Both the position numbers and the translations under genes were made by a program. A DNA stretch of 64,000 nucleotides from Streptomyces sp. NBC_01460 (GTDB taxonomy: Bacteria > Actinomycetota > Actinomycetes > Streptomycetales > Streptomycetaceae), in NCBI RefSeq assembly GCF_036227405.1, contig NZ_CP109473.1, forward strand, positions 1,674,001 to 1,738,000, given 5' to 3'. The notes under the pieces are model-generated. The model ran no database searches and was not told the origin of the DNA. It saw only the letters and a list, made by a program, of their open reading frames with translations. Below, piece after piece: positions 59,031-61,943 of this stretch; positions within the stretch are counted from its first letter, which is position 1; each line of letters opens with the position of its first letter.

Positions 59031-59322
59031 GGAACCTCCTTGGGCAGGATCTCTGCCTACTCCGTAGTAGCAGTCCCGGCCGGAATTCCGGAAGTGTCCA
59101 TGCCAACTTGCTTCGACGTGGCGCACTCGGAGCCCTGCTGACGGTGCACCACATCAGAATCAGGCATCCGGCACATGGAGGGGCAAAGCTTCCCATCCGG
59201 ATCATCCGACCGGAGACCGGGAGACTCGGTTCACATCCCCCGGACGGCGCCCCGTCCGCCACCCGGGGGCAGCTCCTGAAACCTGGGTGCGCGGGGTGCC
59301 GCCGTGCCGGATCATGGGCGCC

Positions 59323-60417
59323 ATGCCTCCCAACCCCGAGTCCGCCCTGCCGATCCGGCTCAACGTCGACGACAGCGATTCGCCGTCCGACGTCGTGGAC
59401 GCACTGTTCCTGGGCCGCTTCGCGATGGGCGAGCAGCCGTATTCGCACAGCGCCTCCCTCGACCGGGTCAAGTCGGGCGCGACCCTGCTGCCCCCGGCCG
59501 CCGAGGTGCTGAGGGCCGCACGGGACGACGACCGGAGCGCCACCCTCGCCGAGGGCGACGGCTGGACGGTGCTGGTCTCGCGGTGGAACAGGGGCGCCGA
59601 TGTCACGGTCACCGCCACCACCCCCGAGCTGGCCCGGAAGATCCTCTCCGAGGCGACCGACGGAGCCCAGGACGAGCCGGAGCCGCAGCCTGAGAACGTG
59701 CCGATGGGGTTCTGGTACGTCTCCCCGCGCCGGGGTCCGCACCGCACCACCCGGCAGATCGCCGCGGGCACGTGGGACGAGGTCCGGTCCAACTACACGG
59801 CCCCGGTGGCCGATGCGATGGACCGGCTGATGAAGGTCACCCCCGACGACATCTCCGGCCGGCTGCTCCTGCTGCACGGCCCTCCCGGCACCGGGAAGAC
59901 CTCCGCACTGCGCACCCTCGCCCGGTCCTGGCGCGACTGGTGCCAGGTCGACTGCGTCCTGGATCCGGAGCGGCTCTTCAACGACGTCGGCTACCTGATG
60001 GACATCGCCATCGGTGAGGACGACGGTTCGGCGAAGGGACGGTGGCGGCTGCTGCTCCTGGAGGACTGCGACGAGCTGATCCGGGGCGAGGCCAAGCACA
60101 CGGCGGGTCAGGCGCTGTCCCGGCTGCTCAATCTGACGGACGGGCTGCTGGGCCAGGGCCGCAACGTCCTGGTGGGGGTGACGACCAACGAGGACCTGGA
60201 ACGGCTGCACCCCGCGGTCGTCAGGCCGGGCCGCTGCCTGGCCCGTATCGAGGTGGGCTCGCTGACCCGCGCCGAGTCGGTGTCCTGGCTGGGTACGGAG
60301 GAGGGGCTCGGCCGCGAGGGGGCGACGCTCGCGGAGCTGTACGCCCTGCGGCGCGGCAGCGGACCCGCCTCGGTGCCGAAGCAGGACGCGGGGGCGGACG
60401 CGGGGCTGTATCTCTGA
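59323..60417 (+). CDS. AAA-type ATPase with DUF5925-like N-terminal region
   Basis: A 364-residue protein. The N-terminal 130 residues (LFLGRFAMGEQPYSHS, VSRWNRGADVTVTA) are a conserved actinobacterial extension that I associate with DUF5925. The AAA core has Walker A LHGPPGTGKTSALRTLA, Walker B WRLLLLEDCDELI and sensor VGVTTNEDLERL. These ATPases are often of unknown substrate and may remodel a protein complex. The start is ambiguous between ATG 59314 and 59323. It points towards the histone-fold gene at 60582. Confidence 0.83.
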   Translation: MPPNPESALPIRLNVDDSDSPSDVVDALFLGRFAMGEQPYSHSASLDRVKSGATLLPPAAEVLRAARDDDRSATLAEGDGWTVLVSRWNRGADVTVTATTPELARKILSEATDGAQDEPEPQPENVPMGFWYVSPRRGPHRTTRQIAAGTWDEVRSNYTAPVADAMDRLMKVTPDDISGRLLLLHGPPGTGKTSALRTLARSWRDWCQVDCVLDPERLFNDVGYLMDIAIGEDDGSAKGRWRLLLLEDCDELIRGEAKHTAGQALSRLLNLTDGLLGQGRNVLVGVTTNEDLERLHPAVVRPGRCLARIEVGSLTRAESVSWLGTEEGLGREGATLAELYALRRGSGPASVPKQDAGADAGLYL

Positions 60418-60581
60418 ACCGGGGCCCGTGCCAGGCACTTCCGGGCCGGAGGCGCCGAGTCGTCGCCGGGCCTCCTCGCGGGTGGACCCGGCGACGGCTC
60501 ACCGACGCATGCGGTGCGCGTCCCGCTCGGTGGGGCGCCCGGTGCCGGCGTCCGGGCCGGGCGCGATCCCCGTGGCCCCGC

Positions 60582-61361
60582 TCAGCCGTCCGAACCGGTC
60601 TCCGTCGCTTCCCGGGCCGCGGCAAGGGCTCGCTGCCTGGCCTCACCGAACAGCTGGATCATGGTGGCGGCCAGGACGTCGTCCCTGCCGATCGTCCGCC
60701 CATCTCCCGTGCGGGTGGACAGGGCCAGGACGGACTCCGGCACGGACGGCCGCGTGTCGGCGGGTTCGCCCGGCGTCATCAGGGTGACCGTGCCGAACCG
60801 GGTGATCCCCTTCTCCCTGACGACCATGGCAGCGTCCCGGGCGAGGTCCGTCAGGAACACGCTCGCGAGCCCGTCCAGATCACGGACCATCGCCGGGACG
60901 GCTGCCGTACCCCGGCTGCGCAGCAGCTTCCTGACCCCGGGCTCGAACCTGTGGGCGCCCACCACGGCACTCGGCTTGCGTGACCTGCTGCGCCTGGGGG
61001 CGTGTACGACGGCGCCCTCGGCGTCGTACGCGACTCCGGTCAGCCCCTTGAACGTGGGACTGTGGTGGTACCAACCGCCTCCCACCTCCAGCTCGACGTC
61101 CCGGTCGATGGCTGTCACGAGGTCCTTGGGAAGCAGCTTCCTACGGGCTTCCTCCCGCGCCGCCCGCAGCGCGCCGTCGATGATGTCCGTCAGTACCGCC
61201 CGCGTCACCGACGCGGCGGCCCGGGCGGCCGACCGCGAGACGTGCAGCGGGGTGACGTCCCTGAACACCGCTCTGACGAGGGAGGGCTTGAACGAGGGAA
61301 CGTCCCTGCCCGCGGCGGACGCGGCGCCGGTGCGCTGGGGGTGTACGGGGGATGCGGGCAT
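60582..61361 (-). CDS. Candidate histone-doublet protein
   Basis: A 259-residue protein. Residues 24-90 look like a histone fold: KLLPKDLVTAIDRDVEL resembles the last helix of H2A (RIIPRHLQLAIRNDEEL). Residues 139-236 look like a second fold near H4: PGVRKLLRSRG (H4 PAIRRLARRGG) and VFLTDLARDA (H4 VFLENVIRDA), then a 30-residue insert before RTIGRDDVLAA (the R-T loop and helix 3). A basic PRRSRSRKP linker (122-130) joins them. It would be a single-chain histone dimer that binds and bends DNA. AGGGAG precedes ATG 61361. A short GntR gene lies upstream. Recognition is by eye; no search was run. Confidence 0.7.
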   Translation of the reverse strand: MPASPVHPQRTGAASAAGRDVPSFKPSLVRAVFRDVTPLHVSRSAARAAASVTRAVLTDIIDGALRAAREEARRKLLPKDLVTAIDRDVELEVGGGWYHHSPTFKGLTGVAYDAEGAVVHAPRRSRSRKPSAVVGAHRFEPGVRKLLRSRGTAAVPAMVRDLDGLASVFLTDLARDAAMVVREKGITRFGTVTLMTPGEPADTRPSVPESVLALSTRTGDGRTIGRDDVLAATMIQLFGEARQRALAAAREATETGSDG

Positions 61362-61388
61362 CGGAAAGAGCTCCCTGCTGTCGGTACG

Positions 61389-61427
61389 CGTCGGTGGCCG
61401 GCCGGTGCGACCGGCCGGTCACCGACG
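61389..61427. terminator. Long hairpin between GntR and histone-like genes
   Basis: CGTCGGTGGCCGGCCGGT (61389-61406) and ACCGGCCGGTCACCGACG (61410-61427) pair at 17 of 18 positions over a three-base GCG loop. It would terminate the GntR transcript before the histone-like gene or attenuate read-through. Confidence 0.75.
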
Positions 61428-61476
61428 GGCTGCCCGTCCTTGGCCGGACAGCCCCTCCACGATCTTCATCGGACTT

Positions 61477-61851
61477 CTAGCGCGCGTAGGCCGCCCGCAC
61501 CGCGTCCTCGGCCAGCGCGAGCGCGTCGGCCCGCTCCAGGCCGAGGCGCCGGGCCTGCTCGGCGTACTCCTGCGCTGCCGACGCCGCGTGACGGGCCGCG
61601 GCGTCGCCCGCGGCGGCGACGAACGTCCCGTTGCGTCCCCGGGTCTCGATCACGCCGTCGGCCTCCAGCGCGCGGTAGGCCTTGGCCACCGTGTTCGCGG
61701 CGAGACCCAGCTCCCCGGCGAGGCCGCGTACGGTCGGGAGCCGGTGGCCGACCGGCAGGGCGCCGGAGCGTGCCTGTTCGGACAGCTGGGCACGCAGTTG
61801 CTCGTACGGGGCGGTGGCGGAGTCCGGGTCAACGGCGATCTTGAGGGTCAC
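61477..61851 (-). CDS. YtrA-type GntR regulator
   Basis: A 124-residue regulator with only the GntR winged helix (GHRLPTVRGLAGELGLAANTV at about residues 34-52) and a short helical tail, the YtrA pattern. YtrA proteins normally sit with ABC transporters, but none is here. GTG 61851 has GGGAG before it. It precedes the histone-like gene by 115 bases with a strong hairpin in between. Confidence 0.87.
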   Translation of the reverse strand: MTLKIAVDPDSATAPYEQLRAQLSEQARSGALPVGHRLPTVRGLAGELGLAANTVAKAYRALEADGVIETRGRNGTFVAAAGDAAARHAASAAQEYAEQARRLGLERADALALAEDAVRAAYAR

Positions 61852-61943
61852 GCGGAGATTCTCCCCCACCGGGCTCCGCATCGCCCCGCCCACCGCCGGA
61901 AATTCGGAGGCGGCGGGTTCGGGTCCGGGGTTAGCGTCCGCTC

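Follow-up and report, generated by a model that had tools for sequence, protein, structure and literature searches.

Gene and predicted fold

The 64,000-nucleotide stretch analysed here (the window; Streptomyces sp. NBC_01460, contig NZ_CP109473.1, positions 1,674,001 to 1,738,000) carries on its minus strand, at 60582..61361, a gene whose 259 amino acid (aa) product (P0001) is predicted to contain two histone folds in a single chain. The open reading frame (ORF) has an ATG start, coincides exactly with the one delimited in an earlier note on this DNA, which named no strand, and is present as a single copy in its genome. GTDB contigs yielded 101 relatives, of which the best 80, including Kitasatospora aureofaciens, Actinacidiphila and Yinghuangia, were fetched for locus comparisons (81 loci with the window), and the frame is uninterrupted in 78 of these 80. 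Of the 8000 candidates scored in a search of 5.77 billion proteins, 425 are homologues with E ≤ 0.01; for the 120 that were listed, the named sources are Streptomyces, Embleya, Actinacidiphila and ‘[Kitasatospora]’. In some sources family members are already labelled ‘Histone H2A/H2B/H3’ (P0051) or ‘histone H3/H4’ (P0016 and P0105, for example), which shows that the histone resemblance has been picked up by automatic annotation.

Two AlphaFold2 models place an alpha1-alpha2-alpha3 arrangement in both halves of the protein. The first predicted fold, which is H2A-like, spans residues 26–87 (61101..61286, minus strand, as for all elements of the protein given below), with alpha1 at 26–36, alpha2 at 43–70 and alpha3 at 78–87, and was delineated from the model, profile matches to H2A and alignment to HMfB. 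Helices alpha1 and alpha2 of the second, H4-like fold are predicted at residues 140–183 (60813..60944) from the models and from H4 profile matches of family members without an insertion. That insertion (residues 187–221; 60699..60803) belongs to loop 2 of the same fold, is modelled with a low predicted local distance difference test score (pLDDT), is mostly missing in P0179, P0182, P0185, P0186 and P0189, and is absent or shortened in some natural members. It is followed by alpha3 (226–236) and an H2B-like C-terminal helix (239–254; together 60600..60686), as indicated by the model, an H2B profile match (E 0.012) and superposition on an H2B chain. The ranges proposed earlier by eye, residues 24–90 and 139–236, are close to these, save that the second half runs on as the C-terminal helix to residue 254. 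In the models alpha2 comprises 28 and 27 residues and alpha3 10 and 11 residues in the first and second fold, respectively. Each chain would thus contain two full histone folds, each half being also matched separately by profile, and the two folds are predicted to pair within the chain as a pseudodimer.

In a Foldseek comparison with the PDB, histone or SAGA-complex chains account for 49 of the 50 best rows shown, the sole exception being 6pbs_I (probability 0.28), and the best E-value is weak (3.8e-3). Residues 134–259 superpose on an H2B chain with a root-mean-square deviation of 1.4 Å over 90 residues. Neither of the outcomes that the earlier note had named as arguing against its proposal, a model lacking the histone fold or a confident match to another all-alpha family, was seen in the AlphaFold2 models or the Foldseek rows, and its claim of two histone folds in one chain is upheld by these predictions together with the profile searches described below.

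Sequence relationship to histones

A whole-family profile retrieved 132 PDB matches at E ≤ 10, the best 60 of which are all H2A or H2A-H2B constructs, headed by the Melbournevirus miniH2B-H2A (E 0.005). The N-terminal half profile (the window and 20 of the 78 intact loci) gave 176 matches, the best 60 being H2A without exception (top E 0.0019). The C-terminal half profile including the insertion (the window and 17 loci) gave only five, namely H2B (E 0.012), H4 (E 0.6) and three non-histones (E 0.62–1.7), and in this form it prefers H2B over H4. Following this weak result, a profile was built from the five members named above, chosen for their missing insertion; it obtained 110 matches, of which the best 60 are all H4 (top E 1.9e-6), with an alignment spanning the whole fold.

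Scoring against 120 shuffled and 6 reversed sequences was employed as a control. The H2A sequence reached 15.6 bits on profile A2 (control maximum 6.9 bits) and the H4 sequence 28.0 bits on A5 (control maximum 7.3 bits), a profile of five insertion-less family members that does not include the window protein. In the same control, profile A3, which includes the window’s own C-terminal half, attained only 10.8 bits with H2B and 10.1 bits with H4, and the archaeal HMfA and HMfB scored only 4–9 bits. The identities quoted in the earlier note, 7 to H2A and 6 of 10 to H4, hold on manual alignment with the human sequences, and they exceed chance: the half profiles score H2A and H4 above the shuffled and reversed controls. 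By profile, the first half is best described as closest to H2A and the second to H4, a resemblance for which no orthology is claimed. The combined data support a second fold that is H4-like by sequence and H2B-like by fold and C-terminal helix.

On the Pfam Histone model (PF00125) the window protein scores 18.3 bits, below the curated cut-off of 26.4 bits; P0179 scores 26.0 bits and one relative, in genome G193, exceeds the cut-off. Matches at E ≤ 1 were obtained to Histone in 34 of 40 members and to TAFII28 in 36 of 40. A PF00125 scan of 296 genomes of the phylum produced one match, at the site of a family member, and is to be regarded as insensitive because the window’s own gene goes undetected by it. 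The DUF1931 model (PF09123) does not match the window protein up to E 10; with a threshold of E ≤ 1 it weakly matches three relatives in a set of 40 (lowest E 0.006).

Linker and DNA-contact positions

The two folds are joined by a long linker containing a strongly conserved motif, WYxHSPTFxGLTG (residues 97–109; 61035..61073), which has low pLDDT and represents a possible docking site. Across 92 sequences W97, P102 and F104 are invariant and most other motif positions are conserved in at least 90%. The linker also includes the basic stretch RRSRSRK (residues 123–129; 60975..60995), in which R124 and R128 are retained in at least 90% of these sequences, in agreement with the basic segment that had been noted between the halves.

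With HMfB as ruler, the RD-clamp positions (R52/D59 of HMf) are filled by R73/D80 in the first fold and by R222/D228 in the second, where the assignment needs a one-residue gap since loop 2 is one residue shorter; both folds accordingly carry the RD clamp of nucleosomal-type histones. The position of T54 in HMfB is occupied by K75 and T223, respectively. R73, D80 and R222 are conserved in at least 90% of the 92 sequences, and T223 and D228 are invariant. The loop-1 sprocket arginine (R19 of HMf, R45 of H4) is absent from both folds, its place being taken by H40 and A154; it is not conserved in bacterial singlet histones either (PMC10627809). The isoelectric point (pI) of the window protein is 10.5 (family mean 10.3, range 5.3–11.0, n = 40).

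Selection and distribution

The ratio of nonsynonymous to synonymous substitution rates (dN/dS) was determined for 75 coding sequences, comprising the window gene and the 74 of 78 intact loci that passed a length filter. Comparison of the window gene with the other 74 gave a median of 0.47 (0.38–0.65), and random pairs (298 of 300 usable) a median of 0.53. By segment, the medians are 0.96 for the N-terminal tail (72 comparisons), 0.40 for the first fold, 0.31 for the linker, 0.36 for helices 1–2 of the second fold, 0.71 for the insertion and 0.37 for helix 3 with the C-terminal helix. The fold core and the linker motif are therefore under purifying selection, and the gene is constrained where the model shows structure, yet evolves fast for a core gene.

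The family was detected in four of 396 genomes (one of 236 genera) in a sample of the phylum, in 30 of 197 genomes (one of six genera) in a sample of the order and in 36 of 295 genomes of the genus. In 28 of these 36 the match, in one case with a stop, covers 238 or more of the 258 positions of the profile, and the remaining eight are shortened or interrupted (G697, G719, G682, G694, G639, G667, G735 and G590), indicating that the family decays often. Relatives occur in four plasmid records, three of them at 80% coverage or more. Of 13 chromosome-scale copies for which the length was known (two further copies in large genomes, G422 and G573, being excluded), six lie within 5% of an end (binomial p 0.0009 against 10%). 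Sequence similarity between distant copies stops near the ORF boundaries. The gene is an accessory, horizontally moving one of Streptomyces and near kin, with a patchy distribution. The readings as a mobile element, a phage gene or a defence gene were considered and rejected: no relative occurs in phage records, none of 37 pattern matches in IMG/VR codes for one, the window protein has no match in PADLOC or PHROGs, and no transposase or terminal repeats were seen linked to the gene, although no systematic search for these was made.

Searches of short proteins with each half, aimed at single-fold ancestors, listed 26 and 58 matches, every one a fragment or variant belonging to this family; as these searches score only the 8000 candidates that have the most words in common with the query, distant singlets may escape them. 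In the shorter proteins P0137 (118 aa) and P0128 (150 aa) unrelated sequence comes after the first fold, and they are either single-fold derivatives or broken genes.

Discussion

Two main families of bacterial histones have been described so far, alpha3-truncated singlets and DUF1931 doublets (PMC12701072), and nucleosomal-type histones are reportedly confined to archaea (PMC11390915). The Streptomyces family fits neither bacterial definition. It shares with the alpha3-truncated histones (Bdellovibrio HBb, Leptospira HLp) the histone fold in a bacterium and the lack of a conserved sprocket arginine; in contrast to their single fold with a shortened alpha2 and an alpha3 of 3–4 residues (PMC11390915), it has an alpha2 of 27–28 and an alpha3 of 10–11 residues in two fused folds. 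DUF1931 proteins (Aquifex AQ_328, 1r4v; Thermus, 1wwi) are pseudodimeric too; their chains in the PDB rows have a length of about 150 aa, as against 259 aa and a basic linker here. The eukaryotic H2A-H2B dimer is similar in fold and pairing and in the C-terminal helix that follows alpha3 in the second half, whereas the Streptomyces protein lacks the L1 DNA-contact arginines, possesses a long linker and has a second fold that is H4-like in sequence, and it is not a member of that group. Marseilleviridae histones (7n8n, 9cvt) are likewise doublets and provide the top match of the family profile, but their order is H2B-H2A, while in the Streptomyces protein an H2A-like half precedes one that is H4-like in sequence, and identity in the aligned rows is 10–14%. 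The double histone of Methanopyrus kandleri (1f1e) is archaeal, has 151 residues in its PDB chain, lacks a long linker and a loop insertion, and is not known to have an H2B-like C-terminal helix.

Literature searches found no publication on a Streptomyces histone-fold protein, their scope being such that supplementary tables may list such proteins. The strings ‘streptomyc’ and ‘actino’ are absent from the main texts of PMC11390915, PMC10627809, PMC13260811 and PMC12701072; in PMC13088155, ‘actinomyc’ and ‘actinobacter’ are absent and the Streptomyces count is zero.

We consider it fairly probable that the protein is a double-histone-fold pseudodimer acting, most likely, as a small architectural protein that binds and bends DNA and whose linker docks a partner. 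The H2A-like and H4/H2B-like folds would pair within one chain, as H2A does with H2B, to yield a self-contained unit, the basic alpha1 face and paired loops L1-L2 of which may hold a short stretch of duplex; a histone dimer holds approximately 30 base pairs (bp; Schwab 2024). The duplex so held would be bent, no eukaryotic nucleosome being formed, and the conserved WYxHSPTF motif, together with the basic linker, may dock a second copy or another protein. A further-reaching version appears to us rather improbable: the protein would be a mobile, nucleosomal-grade histone, with full-length helices and an H2A-like and an H4-like fold in one chain, whose descent is from a eukaryote- or virus-type histone and not from the bacterial families known so far, and it would bind and bend DNA and remodel the linear chromosome at each site of arrival.

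The principal competing explanation, which we regard as less probable, is that the double fold no longer acts on DNA and instead serves as a protein-protein module, similar to the DUF1931 doublets or the histone domain of Sos1, that works through the WYxHSPTF motif of the linker. The pI of about 10.5 and the retention of the RD-clamp and basic linker residues speak against such a role, and DUF1931 proteins, by contrast, are described as being without DNA-binding residues (PMC12701072). It is also conceivable, if unlikely, that a weakly constrained mobile gene of little benefit to the host spreads via chromosome arms and plasmids and then decays. This would agree with the presence of the family in just 36 of 295 genomes, eight of which hold only a shortened or broken match, with dN/dS medians of 0.47–0.53, with the location of six of 13 chromosome-scale copies near an end and with the four plasmid records; it is at odds with the open frame in 78 of 80 relatives, albeit drawn from the best 80 of 101, and with purifying selection on the core and motif, and high-GC codon bias presumably saturates dS and thereby raises the ratio. 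That the protein is no histone at all, being instead a convergent helical protein, is very improbable and already disfavoured: the score of 18.3 bits against a Pfam cut-off of 26.4 and the weak Foldseek E-values would allow it, yet independent half profiles specifically retrieve H2A and H4 and one family member exceeds that same cut-off.

A doublet from Streptomyces with full-length helices, a basic surface and sequence resembling H2A and H4 would constitute a third kind of bacterial histone. Given that Streptomyces are easily cultured and genetically tractable, the function of a bacterial histone would become testable in good laboratory strains, and the patchy, mobile distribution provides natural comparisons of strains with and without the gene.

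Genomic context and expression

The histone-fold gene is flanked, as the earlier note had recorded, by genes for an AAA ATPase and a GntR-type regulator. The former, a DUF5925-AAA protein, is encoded on the plus strand (59287..60417) and converges on the histone-fold gene, and the latter lies upstream on the same, minus strand (61477..61893); neither is a conserved partner. An operon partner was sought by ORF calling and clustering and rejected, since no neighbour family occurs in more than 11 of the 81 loci: relatives of the ATPase are found in none of the other 80, and of the four members of the GntR cluster, three do not adjoin the histone-fold gene.

Comparison with ten loci (L115–L118, L123 and L126–L130) identifies the AAA-GntR gap (60418–61476) as a variable slot. 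In four relatives (G597, G585, G586 and G548) the two flanking genes are 84–257 bp apart with nothing between them, and the family match is absent genome-wide; in six others a DUF72 gene lies inside. As the slot may be empty or hold either a DUF72 or a histone-fold gene, the latter was probably acquired there in the window.

Whether the window copy is expressed is uncertain, given that the family leader is mostly missing and strong hairpins lie upstream. A leader of approximately 100 bp is common to many relatives; as a comparison of the window with 29 loci shows, the window copy has kept no more of it than about the final 20 bases ahead of the start. A strong inverted repeat occurs between the GntR and histone-fold genes (61390..61426; RNA fold of 61362–61480, z −3.80, 1 of 200 shuffles equally stable) and adjoins a second hairpin at 61427–61454, the two together possibly forming the terminator of the GntR gene. 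Scans upstream of the histone-fold gene for sigma-70 promoters and T-run terminators found none.

In nine of the 80 relatives’ loci (L061, L064, L070, L077, L081, L082, L087, L094 and L099) an ORF whose product contains ALF short repeats and begins with a signal-like segment is situated just upstream on the same strand (ALF match E 1.9e-36 in L077, the one tested), and in this single subclade the ALF ORF and the histone-fold gene form a travelling pair.
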